A DNA stretch of 32,128 bases from Planctomycetaceae bacterium (GTDB taxonomy: Bacteria; Planctomycetota; Planctomycetia; Pirellulales; Pirellulaceae), in contig JAAEMV010000096.1 of assembly GCA_024225195.1 (NCBI GenBank), positions 1-32,128 of the forward strand. The letters are read 5' to 3'. A program made the translations under genes and the position numbers. Under the pieces are notes generated by a model. It was given only the letters and a program-made list of their open reading frames with translations. It did not search any database and was not told the origin of the DNA. Shown one piece after another: positions 13,856-27,160 of this stretch; position 1 is the first letter of the stretch, and every line of letters starts with the position of its first letter.

Positions 13856-15028
13856 TTACAGATTACCCCGACGAGCCTGCTCCAATTCGAGCGATTCAAA
13901 CAGTGCCTTGAAATTGCCCTTCCCGAATGACTCACTGCCGCGCCGGCAAATGATTTCGAAAAACATCGTGGGACGGTCTTGAAGAGGCTTCGTGAAAATT
14001 TGCAACAAGTACCCTTTATCATCCCGATCAACCAGAACGCGAAGATCTTTAACCTGCTGAATGTCTTCATCGATCGTACCAACACGATCCCAGACCAATT
14101 CGTAGTAAGTTTCCGGGATATCGAGAAAATCAACTCCCCGCGAACGAAGTTCGCCAACAGTGTTGACTTCGTCCTTGGTTAATAATGCAAGGTGCTGAAT
14201 GCCGCCGGTGTTATTATGCCAATCAAGATACTCCTCGATCTGACTCTTGTTCCTGCCATCGGCCGGTTCATTAATCGGAATCTTGATTAGCTCGCGACCA
14301 GAATCCATCACCTTCGACATGAGCGCGGTGTATTCCGTCGAAATATCTTCGGCATCGAAATGCTTGAAAAGCTTAAAACCAAGCACATCTTCGTACCATT
14401 TAACCCACACATCCATCTCGCCCATCGGCACGTTTCCGACGCAGTGATCCACGTAGAACAGGCCCGTTGGATTTTCGCGATTGTATTTATTAATCGCCAA
14501 TTCATCGAGGACACGGAAACCGGGAAGAAATTGCTCCCCCCTCTGCTTCACATTTTCAATCGCATACTTTCCAGTTCTGGAAATGAACGTGTGTACAAAA
14601 CGCCCAAACGATTTCACGCCGGATTTAACAACAGTTCCCAGCTCGTCCGTAATCTCGATCGGTTCGTAAGCAGATTCAGCACCATTCTTCAGAGCTTGCT
14701 CATAAGCCTTGGCTGAATCCTCTACCGTGAACGCAATATCCTTAATCCCATCTCCATAAAGCTGAACCTCCTGTTGCGCCGGGTGATCCGGATGCAAACC
14801 AGTCGTCAACAAAAATCGGATATTGCCCTGCGTTAGCAAATACGTCGCCGCTTCTCTAACGTTGGTTGTCAGATCACTGATTTGCTCGATTTCAAAACCA
14901 AATGCCTGAGCGTAAAAATAAGCCGCCTGCTTGGCATTTCCAACATAGAATTGGACATAATCAACATCTATCAATCTCAGGGGATCGTTCGAATTTTCCG
15001 TTTCAGAAAGCGTTTCTGGAGAACTCAT
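13856..15028 (-). CDS. hppD: 4-hydroxyphenylpyruvate dioxygenase
   Basis: VDYVQFYVGNAKQAAYFYAQAFGFE, VDHCVGNVPMGEMDVWVKWYEDVLGF, GGIQHLALLTKD, LLQIFTKPLQDRPTMFFEIICRRGSESFGKGNFKALFESLELEQARRGNL. The internal ATG at 15028 (MSSPETLS) is preferred over the GTG at 15082. Confidence 0.95.
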   Translation of the reverse strand: MSSPETLSETENSNDPLRLIDVDYVQFYVGNAKQAAYFYAQAFGFEIEQISDLTTNVREAATYLLTQGNIRFLLTTGLHPDHPAQQEVQLYGDGIKDIAFTVEDSAKAYEQALKNGAESAYEPIEITDELGTVVKSGVKSFGRFVHTFISRTGKYAIENVKQRGEQFLPGFRVLDELAINKYNRENPTGLFYVDHCVGNVPMGEMDVWVKWYEDVLGFKLFKHFDAEDISTEYTALMSKVMDSGRELIKIPINEPADGRNKSQIEEYLDWHNNTGGIQHLALLTKDEVNTVGELRSRGVDFLDIPETYYELVWDRVGTIDEDIQQVKDLRVLVDRDDKGYLLQIFTKPLQDRPTMFFEIICRRGSESFGKGNFKALFESLELEQARRGNL

Positions 15029-15276
15029 AGCGAAGACTCTTGTGGTATGTAGTGGGTGGTCAAAAACTGGAACTGGCGTCACCTAGTGACAAAGCTTCGT
15101 TCCGCTGGTGCTACGCAGAGTCTAACAGAAACAAACAATTGTTTAAGTTCAAACCTCAATCACCTCCCGAAACCATCGCTTCCGAGCGTGCTTCGTCCAC
15201 ATATTGGTAGCGGAGGTGTTGTAAGCAATTTCAATCCAGTGCTGGACGACCGTTTTCAGATTGCCGCGAGTGAACG

Positions 15277-16824
15277 CTATCTGCCTTCGGCGATCTCAAA
15301 GACCAACGGGCGGTGATCCGATACGACCGGTTCCTCGATAACATCAATCTCTGAAACCGACCATCTCGAACCCTTGTGCAGCAAAGCGTAATCGATTTCT
15401 ACATCGGGCCGATCCGATCGAAAGGTGAAATGATCCGGCCCTTTGTCGGGAATCTCCCAGTCGCTCTGAAACAAATCGATGACCGGACTTTGAGGCTTAG
15501 AATTGAAATCACCTACAATTGCAATATCCTGTTGCTCCTCATCGAGAAATTCGAGCAGCCGCCGCGCCTGAGCCAGACGCTCTTGCTCAGTACGATAAAA
15601 ATGCACGTCCGCAATCTTCAATTGTCTTTTTGCATCGAGTTTGACATCGACGACCAACGATGTCCGCGGTTCTGAACCCGCTGGCAAACGCAGATTCTTG
15701 ACTTCTCCCAATGGGTTGCGAGATAAAACCGCCATCCCATATTGTCCGCCCTGATAGTCAAAGAAAGAACCGAACGCGTGATACTGCAAACCGGTCAACG
15801 AAGCAAGTTCGCGTGCTTGATCGATTCCTCCACTGCGTTGAACTTGTTGATCCACCTCTTGCAACGCGACAAAGTCCGGATGCAACCGGCGAATCACCTC
15901 AGCAGTTCGCTTTAAATCAACTTGATTATCATTCCCCCGACCGTGCTTAATATTGTAAGCCAAGATGCGGAAACTCCGCCTACCCAGTTCTCCGCCACCC
16001 ATCGGGACCGGTAAGTCGAGGGGACGCTTTCGTTCAGCTTTCGGAAGCCGAAGTTCGGAATCTTCACTCACGTCAGTTGTTTCTGAATTGGGCTTCGTTC
16101 GCAAAAAGAATCGACCGCCCTCGACATCAACTCTAGACCCTTCCGCTGTTTTTGCGCTCACTGCTGGTTCCCATTTCTCCTGCACCAGAATCCACGGTGA
16201 TTCAACGTCGCAGCAACGTTGTGGTTGCTCCGCAATTTCGTCAACCGGCATGGCACTGATAAAGCTGTGAAGACCGTTTAACAACTTGCCGCCAGATTTC
16301 AACGAGCACGTGCCTAGATGCACCCAGCGATTCTCTTGCATCAGATAAAAATAAGCTGCGTAACTAGTTTCTGTATCTTTAGTTTCTGAGTAGACAATAA
16401 AACGAAGCGGATCTCCGATTTCCCAATCCAAATCATAAGATAACTCGGTGGTACCATCATCGGCGAGGGAACGCTCCCTGACCCCTTTCCCCAGGGTCAC
16501 AACTTTGACTTGACCGTCTCTAGCCGCAGCAGGCTCAGACAGCTTTGTATTGGGCGTCGCTGACACAGAAAAAACAACAGTTTTCTTCCCGGCCTCAAGC
16601 TGCTGAACTCCCAGCCAACCGTGACTGAATCCACAAGCCGCGTAGGCTGAGTTAGCACTCGATTCCCGAACCGTGAGTTCACTGTAGAACGCTGAAGCCG
16701 GTGCACTTTTGAAGTCAATCCCGACTAGTGCAGTGACTTTGGTCTGAGCCCCAATAAGTGTCGGTGCAAAGCCAGTGATGCAGAAAATAAGCACCCAAGC
16801 CAAGGTTGCCAGCGATAATTTCAT
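15277..16824 (-). CDS. Two-domain secreted protein: N-terminal DUF3472-like domain plus C-terminal endonuclease/exonuclease/phosphatase domain
   Basis: Signal peptide-like MKLSLATLAWVLIFCITGFAPTLIGAQ; EEP motifs RILAYNIKHGRG, PDFVALQEVD, YGMAVLSR, VGDFNSKP, DYALLHKG, VSDHRPLVFEI. The N-terminal half resembles DUF3472 by motif memory only. Confidence 0.87.
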   Translation of the reverse strand: MKLSLATLAWVLIFCITGFAPTLIGAQTKVTALVGIDFKSAPASAFYSELTVRESSANSAYAACGFSHGWLGVQQLEAGKKTVVFSVSATPNTKLSEPAAARDGQVKVVTLGKGVRERSLADDGTTELSYDLDWEIGDPLRFIVYSETKDTETSYAAYFYLMQENRWVHLGTCSLKSGGKLLNGLHSFISAMPVDEIAEQPQRCCDVESPWILVQEKWEPAVSAKTAEGSRVDVEGGRFFLRTKPNSETTDVSEDSELRLPKAERKRPLDLPVPMGGGELGRRSFRILAYNIKHGRGNDNQVDLKRTAEVIRRLHPDFVALQEVDQQVQRSGGIDQARELASLTGLQYHAFGSFFDYQGGQYGMAVLSRNPLGEVKNLRLPAGSEPRTSLVVDVKLDAKRQLKIADVHFYRTEQERLAQARRLLEFLDEEQQDIAIVGDFNSKPQSPVIDLFQSDWEIPDKGPDHFTFRSDRPDVEIDYALLHKGSRWSVSEIDVIEEPVVSDHRPLVFEIAEGR

Positions 16825-17286: not shown

Positions 17287-17610
17287 TTAGAAAATCCCCA
17301 ACTGATCTCTCGCGTCATCGGACATCATATCCTGCGTCCATGGAGGATCCATGACGACCTTGACTTCAACGTCGTCCACGCCGTCCATTTCGCCAGCATA
17401 CTTTTTCGTTTCCGCGACCAACTGCGGCCCGGCAGGACACATAGGACTCGTCATCGTCATTTCAATATTCACTTTGAATTTTTCTTCATCGCCATCAATC
17501 GACGCAACGTCGACGACATAGATGAGCCCAAGGTCAACAATGTTTACAAATAATTCTGGGTCGATTACCTGTTTGAGTGCTTCGCGCACTTGGTCTTCCT
17601 GCAGCGGCAT
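17287..17610 (-). CDS. sufT: MIP18/DUF59 family iron-sulfur assembly protein (SufT-like)
   Basis: VREALKQVIDPELFVNIVDLGLIYVV...VNIEMTMTSPMCPAGPQLV...VEVKVVMDPPWTQDMMSDDARDQLGI. Confidence 0.92.
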   Translation of the reverse strand: MPLQEDQVREALKQVIDPELFVNIVDLGLIYVVDVASIDGDEEKFKVNIEMTMTSPMCPAGPQLVAETKKYAGEMDGVDDVEVKVVMDPPWTQDMMSDDARDQLGIF

Positions 17611-17665: not shown

Positions 17666-17983
17666 TCAAGACTCATTTAATCGAATCATAATCGATCCGT
17701 TTTCAACTTTAACTTGATGGGAAACAGTGTCCTGCGTCGCCGGCATCGAAAGTGCCTTCCCAGTCCTCAAATCAAATTTTGCACCATGTCGAGGACAGGC
17801 GATCTCGCACCCCTCATGGGGACCGTCACTCAATGTCCCACCGTCGTGGGTACAGATATCGTCGATGCAATAAAAATCATCTCCTATTCGAGACAGGATG
17901 ACCAACCGATCATCAACCTCGACAAGACGAGTTGATCCGTCATCAATATCAGCGACCGATGCAACAGCTATAAATTCACTCAT
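17666..17983 (-). CDS. Rieske-type [2Fe-2S] ferredoxin
   Basis: CTHDGGTLSDG...CPRHGAKFDLRTGKAL: CxH...CxxH Rieske cluster motif. Confidence 0.93.
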   Translation of the reverse strand: MSEFIAVASVADIDDGSTRLVEVDDRLVILSRIGDDFYCIDDICTHDGGTLSDGPHEGCEIACPRHGAKFDLRTGKALSMPATQDTVSHQVKVENGSIMIRLNES

Positions 17984-18110: not shown

Positions 18111-20591
18111 CTAGATCATGTAACCCATCTGCTCCGCTTCCAGTTCTGAAGCAAACTTATGCTTCACATTCAAAGCGATTCCTCCCGAAATATGCCGTGC
18201 CGTATCAACACCGATCCGACGCGCCACCTCTGCCGCTTTCCCGCTTCTTCGCCCGCTTCGACAAAGAAAAATAACATCTCGCGGCGACTCACGATGAGCG
18301 GCCAACAGCTTCGGAAGATATCCGCTCAACCGCGTTAGCGGAATGTTCTTGGGCGGAGAATGAAAACCCAACTCTTTCCAGTCTTGAGCAAATGCAAATT
18401 CATGCGGCTCGCGAACATCGATAATCAACGAGTCCTGATGCTCTTGGAAAAAGTGCTTCAACTCCTCCCGTCCGATCTCGATAGAGCCTTCCTGTTCCAC
18501 TGTAAAATCTTTGATTAAACCGCACACCAATTCTGAATTGGTAGCATCAGCGATCCCCGCATCAATGCCAGGTTTCGTTTCTACAAATGTCTGAAGATCC
18601 AAAGGCGTTTCTGGACAAAGTATTCTCGCTAAAAATTCGTTATCCTCTTGCTCGAATTCAAGGGTCGTCGAAAAGTCATTGTTGTAATCGTGAGTGGGAC
18701 AGAGAATCGTTCGATTCGAAACCAGAGTAGGCAATCGTCTTAGCGAGCCATACATTTTGTCAATCGAGCTGCATGGAAAATCTGTCCGACCAATGCCACC
18801 CATCAAGATCATATCCCCTGTAAAAGCGAACACGACGTTCTCCGCCTTCAACTGGTTTCCCTCGGATAAGGAACCTACCAAATAGGCACAACCAATTAAC
18901 GTGTGCCCTGGCAGATCTGTTCTGGCAACAATCCAGTCATCTGAAAATTGCAAGTAAGGAGCCTCGCTTCCATCGGAAAGCACCGCCACTCCATCGACCG
19001 TTTCCGGCCACCCTAATTCGTCTTTCGTTTCTGCTGAAGCCGCCGCGTGGTCGCGAATTACCCCCAACAGCATCTTGCGACAAGAATCATGATCGACGTG
19101 GGCATGTGAATCAAGAATCGCAAGCACCTTGCTTTTCTGGCACCGGATAAGCGCCTCCGTCCGATCCGCCAATTCCTCAAACGGATCGACCACAATGCAA
19201 TTCCGGGTCTTTGAGTCCATTAGAAGCCAAGTACACATCGAACCATTTTTCAGCTGCACCAAGCCGTCGAGGTCTTGCCCGGGCACACTGTCTGAATCGC
19301 TCGCGACAACCAAACAAGACTCGCACAACGCCTGCCCAGCCTGCTCAATTCGCTCACACGCCGAATTAATTTCGGTAGCCGTTGCCAACGGGCCGAATGA
19401 TAAACGAATCGCTCCGTAAGACCGCCATTCGGGAACTCCCATCGCATCGAGCACATACGAGCGCTGTATCATCGATCCGCAAGCGGAACCCGAACTCACA
19501 CGAATCCCCGCAGCATCAAACAAGTCAAGCAATTCTTTGCTTGGAAAACCTTTGACTGAAAAATTAATTGTGGTGGGGACGGACGTCTCCATCGGCATGT
19601 TGTATTCAATCGTCGGAAATGCGCTGTCGAGCGCCTGCAGCAGTTGTTCTCGATAACCGTGTAAGACAGCCTCATCGGCAAAAGTCTTAGTGTCAGAGTC
19701 CGCCAACTTTTTCATCACTGCGGCGATCGCAGCAACCCCGGGTAGATTCTCCGTTCCGCCACGGGCACCCTGCTCCTGTCCACCGCCTGCTAACAAAGGC
19801 ACCAATGGTGCACCTTCGCGGACGTACAACAATCCAATTCCTTTGGGTGCATATATTTTATGTCCGCTGACTGCAGCGTAATCAATGGTCGAGCTTGACA
19901 AATCCAGTGCAATTTTTCCAACTGCCTGAACACTATCGACCAACCACCGAGCGGTTGTATTCTCGGCACGAATCGTTTTCTCGACCGCTTGAAGATCGGT
20001 CACCACACCCGTTTCGTTGTTGACCGCCATCGTACAAATTAAATCAGCATTAGCAGCATGGCTTCTCAGGAAATCCAAATCGAGCGACCCGTTTTGGTCG
20101 ACCGGGATCTCAAGGATCTGGTTATTGACGCCGAGCAATTGATTCCAATGCTGCAATGCCTGAGGTACCGCTTTATGCTCGGTTGCTCCATAGAGCAACG
20201 TCCGAGGTTCTTGGCCCTCCTTATTTTCAGAGCGATGCTCGCGAATGTCGCAGAGAGTCGAAAAAATCCCCATTTGAATTGCTTCGGTAGCCCCGCTGGT
20301 GAACACGATCTGCCCACCCTCCGCCGCGAGCACCTCCCGAACTAGATCTCGGGTGGATTCAAGAATGTACCGCGCTCGCAACCCGGAAATGTGGGCGCTG
20401 CTTGGATTGCCAAACAACTCCTCCATTGCGTCGTGCGCTTCCTGAGCCGCCTCGGGCAACACTGGGGTCGTCGCGTTGGCATCGAGGTATATCTCCGAAG
20501 CTGACCGAATAATCATCGCATCCTCAAATAGTTTATCTAGGAACTTAGAGGACAAAAACCGAGCTGTTTTGCCCAGTTTCATTGTATCCAA
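18111..20591 (-). CDS. Cysteine desulfurase - MBL (ETHE1-like persulfide dioxygenase) - rhodanese triple-domain fusion
   Basis: Uninterrupted 826-aa ORF. NifS/IscS-type region YLDANATTPV, SGHKIYAPKG, SSGSAC (Cys codon 19479-19481). MBL region HAHVDH (19089-19106), LPGHTLIGCAYL, FTGDMILMGGIGRTDF, CPTHDYNN. Rhodanese region IIDVREPHEF and CRSGRRS (Cys codon 18261-18263). The likely start is ATG at 20516 with an upstream GAGGA; TTG 20591 and ATG 20582 are alternatives. Confidence 0.95.
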   Translation of the reverse strand: MDTMKLGKTARFLSSKFLDKLFEDAMIIRSASEIYLDANATTPVLPEAAQEAHDAMEELFGNPSSAHISGLRARYILESTRDLVREVLAAEGGQIVFTSGATEAIQMGIFSTLCDIREHRSENKEGQEPRTLLYGATEHKAVPQALQHWNQLLGVNNQILEIPVDQNGSLDLDFLRSHAANADLICTMAVNNETGVVTDLQAVEKTIRAENTTARWLVDSVQAVGKIALDLSSSTIDYAAVSGHKIYAPKGIGLLYVREGAPLVPLLAGGGQEQGARGGTENLPGVAAIAAVMKKLADSDTKTFADEAVLHGYREQLLQALDSAFPTIEYNMPMETSVPTTINFSVKGFPSKELLDLFDAAGIRVSSGSACGSMIQRSYVLDAMGVPEWRSYGAIRLSFGPLATATEINSACERIEQAGQALCESCLVVASDSDSVPGQDLDGLVQLKNGSMCTWLLMDSKTRNCIVVDPFEELADRTEALIRCQKSKVLAILDSHAHVDHDSCRKMLLGVIRDHAAASAETKDELGWPETVDGVAVLSDGSEAPYLQFSDDWIVARTDLPGHTLIGCAYLVGSLSEGNQLKAENVVFAFTGDMILMGGIGRTDFPCSSIDKMYGSLRRLPTLVSNRTILCPTHDYNNDFSTTLEFEQEDNEFLARILCPETPLDLQTFVETKPGIDAGIADATNSELVCGLIKDFTVEQEGSIEIGREELKHFFQEHQDSLIIDVREPHEFAFAQDWKELGFHSPPKNIPLTRLSGYLPKLLAAHRESPRDVIFLCRSGRRSGKAAEVARRIGVDTARHISGGIALNVKHKFASELEAEQMGYMI

Positions 20592-20734: not shown

Positions 20735-22054
20735 CTACTCGTAATCCCTGACGCGTCGAGATATCGCCAAAGCCAACGCTTCCCGGACACTCTCAATCGT
20801 GACCCGATCAAAGACCTGTTGGAAAAATCCGGTCACAATCGCTCGAATAGCTTCCTTGCGGGTAAACCCGCGGCACTGAGCGTAAAAGATTAACTCCTCG
20901 TCCACACGACCGCTGGTCGAACCGTGCGTGCACCGCACGTCATCCGCCTCGATTTCCAAGCCCGGAATAGAGTCGGCCCGTGCCTTACTCGACAGCAGCA
21001 GGTTATCGTTTCGCTGATAACCATCCGTCTGCTGAGCTTCGACGTCTACCTTGATCATTCCTCTCCAGACCGTTCGCGACTGGTCTTGAAGTGCGCCCTT
21101 GTAGAGAAAATCACTGGTGCAATCTGGTTTCTCATGATGCTGAAGCGTGTGGTAACTGAGGTGCTGTTTGTTTTCTGTAAACATGACACCGTTGACCTGG
21201 CAAGTTCCACGCTTCCCCCTGAGAGAAACGTGCTGGTTGACCTTCGCCAAACGAGACCCCAACGCACCCACCGTCCACTGGAGATTCGAATCCTGCCCAA
21301 TGACAGCTTTTTGGTGCGCAAAATGCCAAACCTTCTGACTCCAATCTTGAAGATTGACGTAGCGCAAATTGCCGCGGTCGCCGACAACGATCTCAATCGC
21401 TCCGCAATGCAAACCGACCGCGTCTTTGGCGTTATTGGATTCGGCAAGAACGGTGGCCTCCGCTCCCTCCTCGAGCACAATCAACGTGTGAGTAAAATCA
21501 CAACCGCCGTCAGTCATCGTGGAAAAAGTATGGATCGGGTTTTCTACACAAACATTCCGCGGCACATAAAGAAAAATCCCGCTTGTCCAGGTTGCTTGGT
21601 GTAATGCAGCAAAACGATCTTCTAATCCGTCAACCACTTGGAACAAGTGCTTTCGAATCAGGTCACCGTGCTCTTCGAGCAGTTCACTGATGGTTCCAAA
21701 GATCACTCCTTTGTCTGCCATCGCAGAATCAAACTGAGACGCACCCGAAGCCACGCCGTCACACGACGACGCCGAACCAACCAAATCAACACCGTCGGCG
21801 AGTACTGGAGTTCCTGCCGCGACTTCGCCCCGCGCCGAGGGAATGAAAAACTTTTCAAGATGGAACAAACGAATATCAGTCCGCATCCACTCTTCGTCAC
21901 GGTTACTCGGCCACGGCAGCTCCTTGAATCTCTCCCAGGCCGCCGTGCGAATCTCAGTTAACCATTCAGGTTCGTTCAACGTTTCAAGAAACGCCGCGAA
22001 ACCTTCATCGGTAAATGTCAGTTGCATTTTTTCAGTTAGTGTTGTTGGTGTCAT
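20735..22054 (-). CDS. sufD: Fe-S cluster assembly protein SufD
   Basis: SufBD core: TDGGCDFTHTLIVLEEGAEATVLAES, VNQHVSLRGKRGTCQVNGV, DQSRTVWRGMIKVDVEAQQTDGYQRNDNLLLSSKARADSIPGLEIEADDVRCTHGSTSG. Confidence 0.95.
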   Translation of the reverse strand: MTPTTLTEKMQLTFTDEGFAAFLETLNEPEWLTEIRTAAWERFKELPWPSNRDEEWMRTDIRLFHLEKFFIPSARGEVAAGTPVLADGVDLVGSASSCDGVASGASQFDSAMADKGVIFGTISELLEEHGDLIRKHLFQVVDGLEDRFAALHQATWTSGIFLYVPRNVCVENPIHTFSTMTDGGCDFTHTLIVLEEGAEATVLAESNNAKDAVGLHCGAIEIVVGDRGNLRYVNLQDWSQKVWHFAHQKAVIGQDSNLQWTVGALGSRLAKVNQHVSLRGKRGTCQVNGVMFTENKQHLSYHTLQHHEKPDCTSDFLYKGALQDQSRTVWRGMIKVDVEAQQTDGYQRNDNLLLSSKARADSIPGLEIEADDVRCTHGSTSGRVDEELIFYAQCRGFTRKEAIRAIVTGFFQQVFDRVTIESVREALALAISRRVRDYE

Positions 22055-22110: not shown

Positions 22111-23523
22111 TTAACCCACGGAACCTTCCATTTGCAACTGAATGAGCCGGTTCATTTCGACCGCGTACTCCATCGGGAGTTCTTTTACCAGCGGTTCGAT
22201 AAATCCATTCACGATCATCGTGCTGGCTTCGGCCTCGGACAACCCGCGACTCATCAGATAAAACAATTGTTCCTCACCAATCCTGGAGACACTTGCTTCA
22301 TGCCCCATCGATACATCCTGTTCATTGATCTCGATGTACGGATAGGTATCGCTTCGACTAGCGTCATCTAAAATCAAAGCGTCGCAGACAACTGAGCACT
22401 TCGAATTGACCGCGCCTTTTTCAACTTTCGCCAAACCACGGTAACTACTGCGGCCACCATTTTTCGAAATTGACTTGGAAATAATGGTGCCGGTCGTATC
22501 AGGAGCACAGTGTACTAATTTTGCACCGGCGTCCTGGTGCTGCCCCTTACTCGAAAACGCAATCGATAAAATCTCTCCGCGTGCTCCAGGTTCCATCATG
22601 TAAACCGCTGGGTACTTCATGGTCAGTTTGGAACCGAGGTTTCCATCAACCCACTCCATCGTACCGTCTTGGTAGGCGAACGCTCGTTTCGTTACCAGAT
22701 TATAAATATTGTTCGCCCAGTTTTGGATCGTCGTGTAGCGACAGCGTGCGTTCTTCTTGACCACCACCTCGACAACAGCCGAGTGCAAGGACTCACTTGT
22801 GTACATTGGTGCTGTACAGCCTTCGACGTAATGGACTTGAGCGCCTTCATCGACGATGATCAAAGTTCGCTCGAACTGCCCCATGTTTTCTTCGTTAATA
22901 CGAAAATAGGCTTGCAGCGGAAACTCAATACTTACTCCCGGCGGAACGTAGAGAAACGATCCACCCGACCAGACAGCGCTGTTGAGAGCAGCAAACTTGT
23001 TATCAGTGGACGGAATGATCTTGCCGAAATACTCACGCAGCAATTCTGGATGCTCGCGAACGGCAGTGTCCGTGTCGGTAAAAATCACGCCTTGGTCCGA
23101 CAGATCTTTCTTCAGCGATCCGTAAATTACTTCCGATTCGAACTGTGCCTTGACTCCCGCCAGATACTTCCGTTCCGCTTCTGGAATTCCCAGCTTTTCA
23201 AACGTGTCTTTGATTTCTTCAGGAACGTCATCCCACGATTTACCCTGATCGGTCGTCGGCTTGAGGTAATAGAAAATATCCTGAAAATCCAAATCGATAT
23301 CACCGCCCCACTTAGGCATTGGCTTCGATTCGAAAATCTCAAGTGCCTCCAACCGGAATTGACGCATCCAGTCTGGTTCGTTTTTGATATCGGAAATCTG
23401 GTTTACGATCTCAGCATCAACACCTTTTCGGGCTTTGAAAACCGCTGTTGTTTCCGTTTTAAAATCGTACTTATTGATTTCAGTCGATTTTAACTCTTGG
23501 CTTTCAGTCAAATCAGTTGACAT
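22111..23523 (-). CDS. sufB: Fe-S cluster assembly protein SufB
   Basis: [54 protein letters not shown]...[55 protein letters not shown]. Confidence 0.97.
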
Positions 23524-23668: not shown

Positions 23669-24487
23669 TTAAACGACCGCCTCGGCTTCCGCTTCGGATT
23701 CGTCGTTGACTTTGGCAGCCTCTGGGTACTGCTTTCTAATACGCTCATAGCCCTGAGCGTGTAGTTCCTCGGCTAGTTCTTTTCCGCCGGTTTCGACGAT
23801 TCGACCACCAAGGATCACGTGGGTGAAATTCGGCGGATTGTGCTCTAGCAATTTGTCGTGGTGCGTAATGATCAGCAAACCCATCTTGTTATGGCCAATC
23901 TCATTGATTGACTGACTAGCCAGCCGAACCGCATCCGCATCGAGCCCGGAATCCGTCTCGTCGAGAATCGCAAACTTGGGCTGCAGCATTGCGAGTTGCA
24001 GAATCTCAGCTCGCTTCATCTCGCCGCCCGAGAAACCATCGTTCACGTACCGCCGTGCAAATTCGCTGTCCATTTGCAACTGTTCCATGTTGGCCTTGAT
24101 TTCCTTGCGAAACTCTCGCATCGGTATCAGGTCTTCACCCTCTTTACGCTCTGGATTCCGCACATTGGTCGTCGCATGGCGAAGAAAATCAGCCATCTTT
24201 ACGCCGGGAATAGCAACAGGACGTTGGAAGGCCATAAAGATACCGGCCCGAGCCCGCTCATTCGGTTCCAAGTCAAGAATGTTTTCACCGTTAAGCAGGA
24301 TCTCTCCCTGAGTACAATTGTAGTTAGGGTGCCCCATGATGGCTAAACCCAGTGTACTTTTGCCAGATCCGTTCGGCCCCATCAAGGCATGTGTTTCACC
24401 TTCGGTCATTGAAAGGTTAACACCCCGAAGGATTTCCTTGTCGCCAATCGACACGTGAAGATCAACTATCTTTAGTACGTCGCTCAT
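23669..24487 (-). CDS. sufC: Fe-S cluster assembly ATPase SufC
   Basis: ABC ATPase: MGPNGSGKSTL, FSGGEMKRAEILQLAMLQPKFAILDETDSGLDADAV. Confidence 0.97.
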   Translation of the reverse strand: MSDVLKIVDLHVSIGDKEILRGVNLSMTEGETHALMGPNGSGKSTLGLAIMGHPNYNCTQGEILLNGENILDLEPNERARAGIFMAFQRPVAIPGVKMADFLRHATTNVRNPERKEGEDLIPMREFRKEIKANMEQLQMDSEFARRYVNDGFSGGEMKRAEILQLAMLQPKFAILDETDSGLDADAVRLASQSINEIGHNKMGLLIITHHDKLLEHNPPNFTHVILGGRIVETGGKELAEELHAQGYERIRKQYPEAAKVNDESEAEAEAVV

Positions 24488-24602: not shown

Positions 24603-25265
24603 TCAACTCACTCCAGCTTCGCGGTTTTCATCGGCGGATTCTTGCCCAACCTCAAAAGTGCAACAACTGTCGCCGTCTTGCCGGCACTGGCATCTATCAA
24701 CCGGATGACCGATGACACTCTCAAGCAAAGCTTGCTCCATGTCACAAATCTCATGATTCTCACCGACGAGTGTTGGATAAGGACAGCCACCAACTTTGAT
24801 CAACGGCAACGCCGAATTTTCGTCGACACTAATTGAAATCTGACGCTCCGCGAACATCTCCACCAAAGACCTTGTTCTCTCTTCAACGGTGTCGCCACGA
24901 ATCGCTAACTGGTACCGCTCTGATAACCGCTCCACAGCACCCGTAATAACTTTCCGTTTAACGCTGGGATCCTCGATTTTTTGCACTTGTTCCCACAACA
25001 CCACTGCCAGGTCATCTAAATTATTAGCACTGCTGCGTTTGCCCTTATCAGTCAATAAATAACGGTGACTCGGGCGCCCTCGGCCCTCCACCGTTCGCGA
25101 ACGCTCGACAAGCTCAAGTGCCATCAGCCGATTCAAACGCTGCCTCACAGCAGTTGCCGTAACTTGCATCGCATCGGTCAATTCACAAATCGACATCGAC
25201 TCTGCACCGCGAAGAACCGAAATCATGGCTCGATCGTTTTGCGATAACTGAGAGTGAGGATTCAT
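24603..25265 (-). CDS. sufR: SufR-like winged-helix regulator with C-terminal Cys-rich domain
   Basis: N-terminal wHTH SICELTDAMQVTATAVRQRLNRLMALELVERSR...GRGRPSHRYLLTDKG; C-terminal C-X12-C ... CQCRQDGDSCCTF; first gene of the suf cluster. Confidence 0.85.
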   Translation of the reverse strand: MNPHSQLSQNDRAMISVLRGAESMSICELTDAMQVTATAVRQRLNRLMALELVERSRTVEGRGRPSHRYLLTDKGKRSSANNLDDLAVVLWEQVQKIEDPSVKRKVITGAVERLSERYQLAIRGDTVEERTRSLVEMFAERQISISVDENSALPLIKVGGCPYPTLVGENHEICDMEQALLESVIGHPVDRCQCRQDGDSCCTFEVGQESADENREAGVS

Positions 25266-25483: not shown

Positions 25484-27160
25484 ATGACATCTTCAAAATG
25501 GTTGAAAATTGCGGCACTTGCAGTGCTGCTAGTTATTGCAATTGGACATCTCCCCAACACGGGTGAAACATTCGCTCAGGTTGCCGCAGAAGCAGATGGG
25601 GCCGCAACGCTTGGAATCGACGAGAAAATTGACAAAGCCTTCAAGCCAGTGTCTGACTTTTTTGGCGGTGTGGTTTTCTTCCAAATACCCGAAGCAGTAC
25701 CCTTTCTAGGCGGTGTACCGTTTGTTCTTTTGCTCCTCGTGTTTAGTGCTCTGTTTTTCACCATTGCTTTTGGTTTTGTCAACATTGTTCATTTTTCCAC
25801 CGCGATTAAAGTCGTATGTGGAAAATATGACAAACTGGATCATCATTCGGCAGACGCAAAAGCGGAAGTCAACATTGTCGACGGAGATGTCGTCGACACA
25901 ATTGCCGATGAATCAGATGGCGAGGTAACCCATTTTCAAGCTTTAGCCACCGCTGTTTCAGGCACTGTGGGCAACGGCAATATCGCGGGTGTCGCCCTCG
26001 CAATCGCGCTTGGCGGACCGGGGGCAACCTTCTGGATGATCGTTTGCGGTATCTTGGGAATGTCAACTAAATTCGTAGAGTGCACGCTCGGTGTTCAGTA
26101 CCGAGATATTGGCGAAGATGGCACGGTCCATGGCGGCCCCATGTACTACCTGGCCAAAGGTCTCAAAGAAAAAGGCTTTGGTGCTGCGGGCACAGTTTTG
26201 GCTATCCTGTTTGCGATCTTTTGTATTGGTGGCTCCTTTGGCGGTGGAAACGCGGCCCAATCAAATCAGGCCACTATTGTCCTGAAAGAACTTTTAAATC
26301 TTGAAGGTACTGCTGCAGGGACGGGAATTGGTGTCGTGCTCGCCATCCTTGTCGGGATCGTCATCATCGGTGGCATCAAGAGAATTGCCTCGGTGACTGA
26401 AAAGATCGTCCCCTTCATGGCAATTCTTTACGCGGTGGCTTGCCTCTACATCATCATTACCAACATCAACCTTCTCGGTGGAGCAATTACGCTAATCTTT
26501 ACTGAGGCATTTACGCCTCAGGCTGGAGTCGGTGGCGTGATCGGTGTTTTGCTGATCGGCTTTAAGAGGGCAGCCTTTTCCAATGAAGCAGGTGCCGGTT
26601 CGGCATCGATTGCTCACTCGGCAGTCAAGACGAAGTACTCTGCTTCCGAAGGCCTCGTGGCGCTACTCGAACCATTCATCGACACAGTTGTCATCTGCAC
26701 AATGACCGCACTGGTCATTATTATTTTCAACACAGGCGGCGAACAATTTGCTTACGGTGGTGACGGAACGGGTGCTGTTATTATTGACGGCCAATCCTTC
26801 GAGGGGGCGGGAATCACTTCCAAAGCCTTTGCCGAGTACATTAAATATTCCAATGTATTTCTAACGGTCGCTGTCGTTCTGTTCGCCGTTTCTACCATGA
26901 TTTCTTGGTCCTACTATGGTCTTCAATCATGGAAGTTTCTCTTTGGACGAAGCAAGGCAGCCGACCTTTCCTACAAATTGCTATTTTGCGTTTTTGTTGT
27001 GATTGGCTCCGCTGCCAACATGAGTTCGGTTTGGGGTTTTTCTGACGCAATGATCTTTGCGATGGTCTTCCCCAACATGGTCGGCCTGTTTTTCTTGTTC
27101 CCAGTTGTGAAAAAGCAGCTAGATCGATACCTCGAAGCAATTCGCAGCAGCAAAGCTTAA
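25484..27160 (+). CDS. Alanine/glycine:cation symporter (AGCS) family protein
   Basis: AVSGTVGNGNIAGVALAIALGGPGATFWMIVCGILGMSTKFVECTLGVQYR...GGPMYYLAKGL...RAAFSNEAGAGSASIAHSAVKT; many TM segments. Confidence 0.94.
   Translation: MTSSKWLKIAALAVLLVIAIGHLPNTGETFAQVAAEADGAATLGIDEKIDKAFKPVSDFFGGVVFFQIPEAVPFLGGVPFVLLLLVFSALFFTIAFGFVNIVHFSTAIKVVCGKYDKLDHHSADAKAEVNIVDGDVVDTIADESDGEVTHFQALATAVSGTVGNGNIAGVALAIALGGPGATFWMIVCGILGMSTKFVECTLGVQYRDIGEDGTVHGGPMYYLAKGLKEKGFGAAGTVLAILFAIFCIGGSFGGGNAAQSNQATIVLKELLNLEGTAAGTGIGVVLAILVGIVIIGGIKRIASVTEKIVPFMAILYAVACLYIIITNINLLGGAITLIFTEAFTPQAGVGGVIGVLLIGFKRAAFSNEAGAGSASIAHSAVKTKYSASEGLVALLEPFIDTVVICTMTALVIIIFNTGGEQFAYGGDGTGAVIIDGQSFEGAGITSKAFAEYIKYSNVFLTVAVVLFAVSTMISWSYYGLQSWKFLFGRSKAADLSYKLLFCVFVVIGSAANMSSVWGFSDAMIFAMVFPNMVGLFFLFPVVKKQLDRYLEAIRSSKA

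Follow-up and report, generated by a model that had tools for sequence, protein, structure and literature searches.

A predicted cysteine desulfurase-persulfide dioxygenase-rhodanese fusion at the suf genes of a marine planctomycete and its patchy family

The three-domain gene on the minus strand of the window (the whole stretch of 32,128 nucleotides analysed here) is judged, with a confidence slightly above even and from the sequence, to encode a cysteine desulfurase-persulfide dioxygenase-rhodanese enzyme that would take cysteine through a persulfide relay to sulfite wherever the iron site survives. In the scheme that we infer, in every catalytic step as well as in the identity of the thiol and in sulfite as the product, the PLP domain would convert L-cysteine to L-alanine and leave a persulfide on Cys371, and the sulfane sulfur would pass from Cys371 to the rhodanese Cys777, which would hand it to a small thiol. 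Where the iron site is intact, the resulting thiol persulfide would be oxidised with O2 by the middle domain, giving sulfite and the free thiol again, for a net conversion of cysteine, O2 and H2O to alanine and sulfite, and the sulfite would be exported, as TauE/SafE neighbours suggest, or reused. If true, this amounts to a self-contained disposal of cysteine sulfur as sulfite, in which the persulfide is kept inside one protein, as opposed to the release of toxic sulfide. A bolder form of the proposal, whose chances are put a little short of even, is that one polypeptide holds the whole cysteine-to-sulfite pathway with no need for free H2S, SQR or cysteine dioxygenase, that it has spread among Planctomycetota, Verrucomicrobiota and marine Gammaproteobacteria, that it is coupled to a sulfite exporter, and that secondary loss of the dioxygenase leaves a desulfurase-rhodanese persulfide generator. 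The features of the gene are listed here, with residues numbered in the 826-aa frame.

18111..20516, minus strand: three-domain fusion gene, probable extent, 801 aa (ATG 20516-20514, stop 18113-18111)
19332..20495, minus strand: class I (NifS/IscS-type) PLP cysteine desulfurase domain (Pfam PF00266, TIGR03402, PDB 1ecx)
19857-19859, 20175-20177 and 19479-19481, minus strand: desulfurase catalytic residues Lys245, His139 and Cys371
18513..19265, minus strand: ETHE1/PDO-like metallo-beta-lactamase (MBL) domain (from profile, fold, tree and residue table)
19104-19106, 18903-18905 and 18813-18815, minus strand: predicted Fe triad His496, His563 and Asp593
18786-18788, minus strand: Arg602 of GRTDF
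19089-19094, minus strand: second-site pair Asp500/His501
18114..18512, minus strand: rhodanese domain with the CRSGRRS loop (Pfam PF00581)
18261-18263, minus strand: rhodanese catalytic Cys777 codon

The single uninterrupted reading frame at 18111-20591 described in an earlier note on this DNA is confirmed as one open frame of 826 codons from a TTG in the ORF reading of the window, and the two Cys codons lie where they had been placed (TGC at 19479-19481 and TGT at 18261-18263 on the minus strand), but the true start is probably further downstream. Specifically, the homologues start at a conserved Met that corresponds to ATG 20516-20514 of the window, and this codon, giving 801 aa, is the probable translation start because three close homologues (L009, L010, L013) carry stops within the stretch aligned upstream of that Met; in two of them (L010 and L013), the open frame opens just a few codons 5' of it. 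The TTG at 20591 was rejected in favour of the ATG on the basis of these stops and frame limits. An assembly artefact or a stop hidden between the domains, named in advance as a possible refutation, is ruled out by the same architecture recurring, each time in one frame, in 96 distinct homologues, and chance is excluded as well because this recurrence is joined by dN/dS values of 0.013-0.037 in all three domains (window versus the four nearest named relatives with a suf-located fusion). Within Mariniblastus, purifying selection on each of the three domains is strong. Moreover, the proposed order of desulfurase, MBL and rhodanese is borne out by Pfam, with every domain above its gathering cut-off: Aminotran_5 at residues 34-409 (E 1e-55), Lactamase_B at residues 452-616 (E 1e-6) and Rhodanese at residues 710-805 (E 6e-5).

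Among the desulfurase profiles, the N-terminal domain scores best with TIGR03402 (272 bits), followed by IscS (202) and SufS (106); all these scores lie far below every equivalog cut-off, and the domain is neither NifS nor IscS proper. The NifS-like PDB entry 1ecx is its best match by sequence and by fold. K245, H139, D219, Q222 and C371 are all present, the Cys sits in an extended SSGSAC loop as expected for class I, and His139, Lys245 and Cys371 are kept in 96 of the 96 aligned fusions. A SufS (class II) identity was discarded, since the 106 bits scored with TIGR01979 fall short of its cut-off of 475 bits.

By sequence, modelled fold and tree, the predicted middle domain groups with persulfide dioxygenases (PDOs) and not with glyoxalase II. 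In the profile search, the PDOs 4ysb, 2gcu, 5ve3 and 4chl reach 61-68 bits versus 42 for GloB and 26 for GloC, and the best PDB match of the C-terminal half by sequence, BpPRF 5ve3, spans residues 450-805. The AF2 model of the MBL and rhodanese domains (pLDDT 85; for the full-length model, pLDDT 82 and pTM 0.76) has BpPRF 5ve3-5ve5 as its closest structures (E 3e-20 to 4e-19), followed by 3tp9, ETHE1 and other PDOs, and in the MBL tree the fusion clade (85/93) is sister to the clade with the characterised PDOs, with GloB/GloC outside. These results dispose of a glyoxalase II identity and uphold the persulfide-dioxygenase-like MBL of the earlier note, whose expected iron ligands (two His and one Asp) are found at H496, H563 and D593; the converse finding of a non-PDO MBL devoid of iron ligands, which the note had set as a refutation, was looked for and is not the case. 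Against the enzyme reading, the MBL domain is just 22-24% identical to known PDOs and the fusion MBLs branch outside the characterised ones, not among them.

The window fusion also has, in addition to the triad, the second-site residues Asp500/His501 and His634, the first two of which correspond in position to the ligands of the second metal in glyoxalase II-like enzymes. Together with the MBL fold itself, they are what speaks for a dinuclear zinc hydrolase of glyoxalase II type, devoid of dioxygenase activity, a reading that is scarcely credible in view of the profile, fold and tree results and of the way in which the ligands are lost. The Fe triad His496/His563/Asp593 is intact in 78 of the 96 fusions, the window included; 30 of these 78 have lost the Asp500-His501 pair, through at least five changes on the tree, and the reverse, loss of the triad with the pair kept, is never seen. 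This pattern fits a mononuclear dioxygenase because published PDO sites contain one metal, coordinated by two His and an Asp (PMC12856154, PMC6060420), at which thiol persulfide and O2 are converted to thiol and sulfite (PMC12856154).

Conversely, the triad itself has been lost in at least three events on the tree, in gammaproteobacteria. The iron site is gone in 18 of the 96 fusions, all gammaproteobacterial, including three from which nearly the whole domain has disappeared, and 16 of the 96 have a middle domain that is degraded or almost absent. Given these repeated losses, dioxygenation would not be essential to the family, and the invariant core, as read from the alignment, is the desulfurase-rhodanese pair, with the dioxygenase module kept in most lineages, the window's included. 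The rhodanese Cys777 and the loop Arg (CxxGxR) are each present in 95 of the 95 fusions that reach that point, one of the 96 proteins being cut off before it. Intact, second-site-less and dioxygenase-dead homologues make up a natural series on PDO domains tied to a sulfur source. Three members of about 600 aa (L260, L261, L262), in which the MBL is nearly gone, retain a CRSG rhodanese-like Cys, although the rhodanese of L260 is no longer recognised by Pfam.

The earlier suggestion of a sulfane-sulfur relay between the desulfurase and rhodanese cysteines gains support, by analogy, from the two-domain CD-Rhd of Pseudorhodoferax, whose desulfurase Cys was shown by experiment to hand cysteine sulfur to its rhodanese Cys, from which acceptors receive it (PMC8931425). 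This relay could itself be the conserved function, in a hyperactive transpersulfidase of CD-Rhd type that supplies acceptor proteins or small thiols with persulfide; the MBL would then be dispensable, serving as a side activity, a spacer or a regulator. Such a reading, rather unlikely on the whole, draws on desulfurase and rhodanese active-site residues that are invariant in the 96 fusions beside an MBL site lost or deleted in 18, and on CD-Rhd being a very active homodimer (PMC8931425). It is at odds with the intact triad and GRTDF motif of the window's clade, where the MBL dN/dS is 0.025-0.031 (0.053 in the closest pair), with the retention of the triad in more than three quarters of the family (78/96), and with the TauE neighbours.

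The fusion is a real, rare and patchy family of common ancestry and not an assembly error, because the desulfurase domains of the 96 distinct fusions aligned (members of Planctomycetota, Verrucomicrobiota and Gammaproteobacteria) group as a single clade (SH-aLRT 99, on a long branch). The planctomycetal and verrucomicrobial members group together (support 100), and this grouping within a single desulfurase clade suggests horizontal spread between phyla. The source assembly consists of 1063 contigs, and the genomes closest to it carry the labels Mariniblastus sp. or Pirellulaceae MAG; the fusion was found in 12 of the 28 genomes searched of the window's genus and, within the same order, once in a different family. 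Scanning named genomes added other Pirellulaceae, Verrucomicrobiales/Akkermansiaceae and Thalassotalea/Thalassomonas, with matches to the query in 71 of 197 genomes of the Thalassotalea family, the weakest of them over the desulfurase alone, and in 6 of 195 genomes of the family of the Akkermansiaceae member. At the limited sensitivity of four candidates scored per genome, 392 Planctomycetota genomes gave no fusion beyond the window's own. Likewise, with two candidates per genome and the limited sensitivity that this brings, no unfused member of the desulfurase clade was seen in 388 Verrucomicrobiota and 369 Gammaproteobacteria, where the other matches cover the desulfurase alone at no more than 40% identity.

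In the window, the fusion lies among suf genes: a SufR-like gene, sufC, sufB and sufD are upstream on its strand, and a Rieske-type ferredoxin gene and a SufT/DUF59-type gene are downstream.

17287..17610, minus strand: SufT/DUF59-type Fe-S assembly protein (PF01883, TIGR03406)
17666..17983, minus strand: Rieske-type ferredoxin, suf neighbour downstream of the fusion (PF00355)
20735..22054, minus strand: sufD (TIGR01981, above cut-off)
22111..23523, minus strand: sufB (TIGR01980, 717 bits)
23669..24487, minus strand: sufC (TIGR01978)
24603..25265, minus strand: SufR-like regulator (TIGR02702, E 6e-11, below the curated cut-off)

The order sufD-fusion-Rieske(-sufT) is conserved in nine Mariniblastus genomes, and the fusion is probably co-transcribed with the suf genes in the window's subclade, because they share strand and conserved order. 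No terminator-like site on the coding strand was found in the gaps on either side of the fusion, and a promoter/terminator scan gave no more sites than shuffled sequence did. These points speak for the earlier note's view of the protein as a SUF-dedicated sulfur donor with the dioxygenase as a persulfide safety valve, which is improbable in the light of the related genomes. The note had placed the fusion in the "SUF desulfurase position", and no such slot exists in this group: the suf operons of relatives run sufC-B-D-Rieske-sufT with no desulfurase in between. In several relatives without a fusion at this site, the Rieske gene neighbours sufD or sufT; sufD is followed by Rieske in three genomes with no fusion at that place (G005, G029, G057), and in another (G004) other sequence, with no desulfurase, separates the two. 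Moreover, a canonical SufS is encoded once, elsewhere, in 17 of the 18 genomes checked, bearers and non-bearers of the fusion alike, which also eliminates a replacement of SufS; that of the window's own genome is on contig C661 (483 bits) and ends at the contig edge. Further points against a dedicated SUF donor are the class I loop, which is not that of SufS, and the location of the fusion outside suf in other lineages; in four genomes (G025, G014, G012, G057), it is found elsewhere than sufB. As far as gene order tells, the suf location reflects a move within one Mariniblastus subclade and does not account for the general role of the enzyme, because relatives' suf operons hold no desulfurase and SufS is encoded elsewhere regardless of the fusion. 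Sulfur delivery to SufBCD hence falls as a general role and may be, at most, a local extra role in the window's subclade. The SUF-desulfurase reading is thereby corrected: an operon neighbour in one genus need not define function.

Other genes accompany the cluster. A sodium:alanine symporter gene (25484-27160, plus strand; PF01235) and the sufR-like gene are divergently oriented. Desulfurases release alanine as a by-product, but symporter and suf are associated without the fusion too, as a homologue occupies the same suf-side place in G005, which lacks it. A 515-aa protein with DUF3472 and endonuclease/exonuclease/phosphatase domains (15277-16824, minus strand) is encoded beside the suf cluster in several Mariniblastus, and a hydroxyphenylpyruvate-dioxygenase-like glyoxalase-fold protein (13856-15082, minus strand) is conserved adjoining the cluster.

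Outside the window's genus, an exporter gene of the TauE/SafE (sulfite-exporter) family adjoins the fusion in eight of ten Verrucomicrobiota and non-Mariniblastus Planctomycetota and in two gammaproteobacteria, in four arrangements: upstream on the same strand (L103 and G057), convergent (six Verrucomicrobiota), downstream on the same strand (L212) and divergent (L219). Oxidation of excess persulfide to sulfite, the safety-valve half of the earlier proposal, is therefore better supported by these adjacent genes than is delivery to SufBCD, in lineages other than the window's genus. TauE as a universal neighbour was rejected, since the fusions of the window's genus and of most gammaproteobacteria lack it; its absence beside the fusion in the window's genus counts against the enzyme reading, as does the lack of sulfite specificity in the family, whose members transport more than sulfite. 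In one case (L102, 5603-6388, minus strand), the TauE/SafE-type gene beside the fusion has a TAA within the matched stretch and may be a pseudogene or a sequencing error. The recurrent neighbours in gammaproteobacteria look generic (FadR, DsbB, an ECF sigma factor with a ChrR-like cupin, malic enzyme, nqrF-like with apbE) and offer no partner; 13 gammaproteobacterial fusions with a decayed MBL (L247-L259) all lie downstream of ApbE and a flavin reductase-type (nqrF-like) gene. In G012 (L069, 8591-10003 and 12609-13073, minus strand), the fusion is flanked on one side by an Lrp/AsnC-type regulator gene and on the other by a second MBL-rhodanese gene, whose distantly related product has 470 aa.

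Comparison with known systems starts from BpPRF of Paraburkholderia phytofirmans (PDB 5VE3-5VE5), the best PDB match for the C-terminal half by sequence and modelled fold, with which the fusion shares the MBL(PDO)-rhodanese order in one chain, also that of CstB, the Fe triad motif and GRTDF, the fold match covering both domains; BpPRF differs in having no desulfurase, in an identity of about 24% and in belonging to a separate clade. A sulfur assimilation role has been proposed for it, as worded in the title of Motl et al. 2017 (cited in PMC6060420), and a corresponding role for the fusion, with the rhodanese taking thiosulfate sulfur, the PDO freeing sulfite and the desulfurase providing cysteine-derived persulfide as a second input, follows from that resemblance. 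It is very improbable: no thiosulfate or sulfite-assimilation genes adjoin the fusion among the neighbours examined, the export-type TauE neighbours point outward, and the desulfurase, the best conserved domain, is left unexplained. CstB of Staphylococcus aureus and 3tp9-type MBL-rhodanese proteins are also PDO-rhodanese chains and follow BpPRF among the fold matches (3tp9, 3r2u), further from the fusion and again with no desulfurase. Blh (DUF442-ETHE1, bigR operon) likewise joins a sulfurtransferase and a PDO in one chain, and its gene accompanies that of a TauE-type sulfite transporter (PMC5823870), but its DUF442 stands ahead of the dioxygenase in place of a C-terminal rhodanese, and it too has no desulfurase. 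With NF040641, the fusion scores 27 bits against a cut-off of 625. SufS is a cysteine desulfurase as well, and suf genes lie beside the fusion in one subclade, but SufS is class II, single-domain and encoded by a separate gene in the same genome. Two-domain CD-Rhd and PDO-Rhd proteins are thus known, and the desulfurase-PDO-rhodanese triple was not found reported, no description appearing in the mainly open-access literature searched. Lastly, CD-Rhd of Pseudorhodoferax sp. (PMC8931425), compared by description, resembles the fusion in joining a desulfurase and a C-terminal rhodanese in one chain; it is a 54 kDa protein with catalytic Cys 334 and 466 and no MBL/PDO domain reported, whereas the fusion carries an extra domain between the two.
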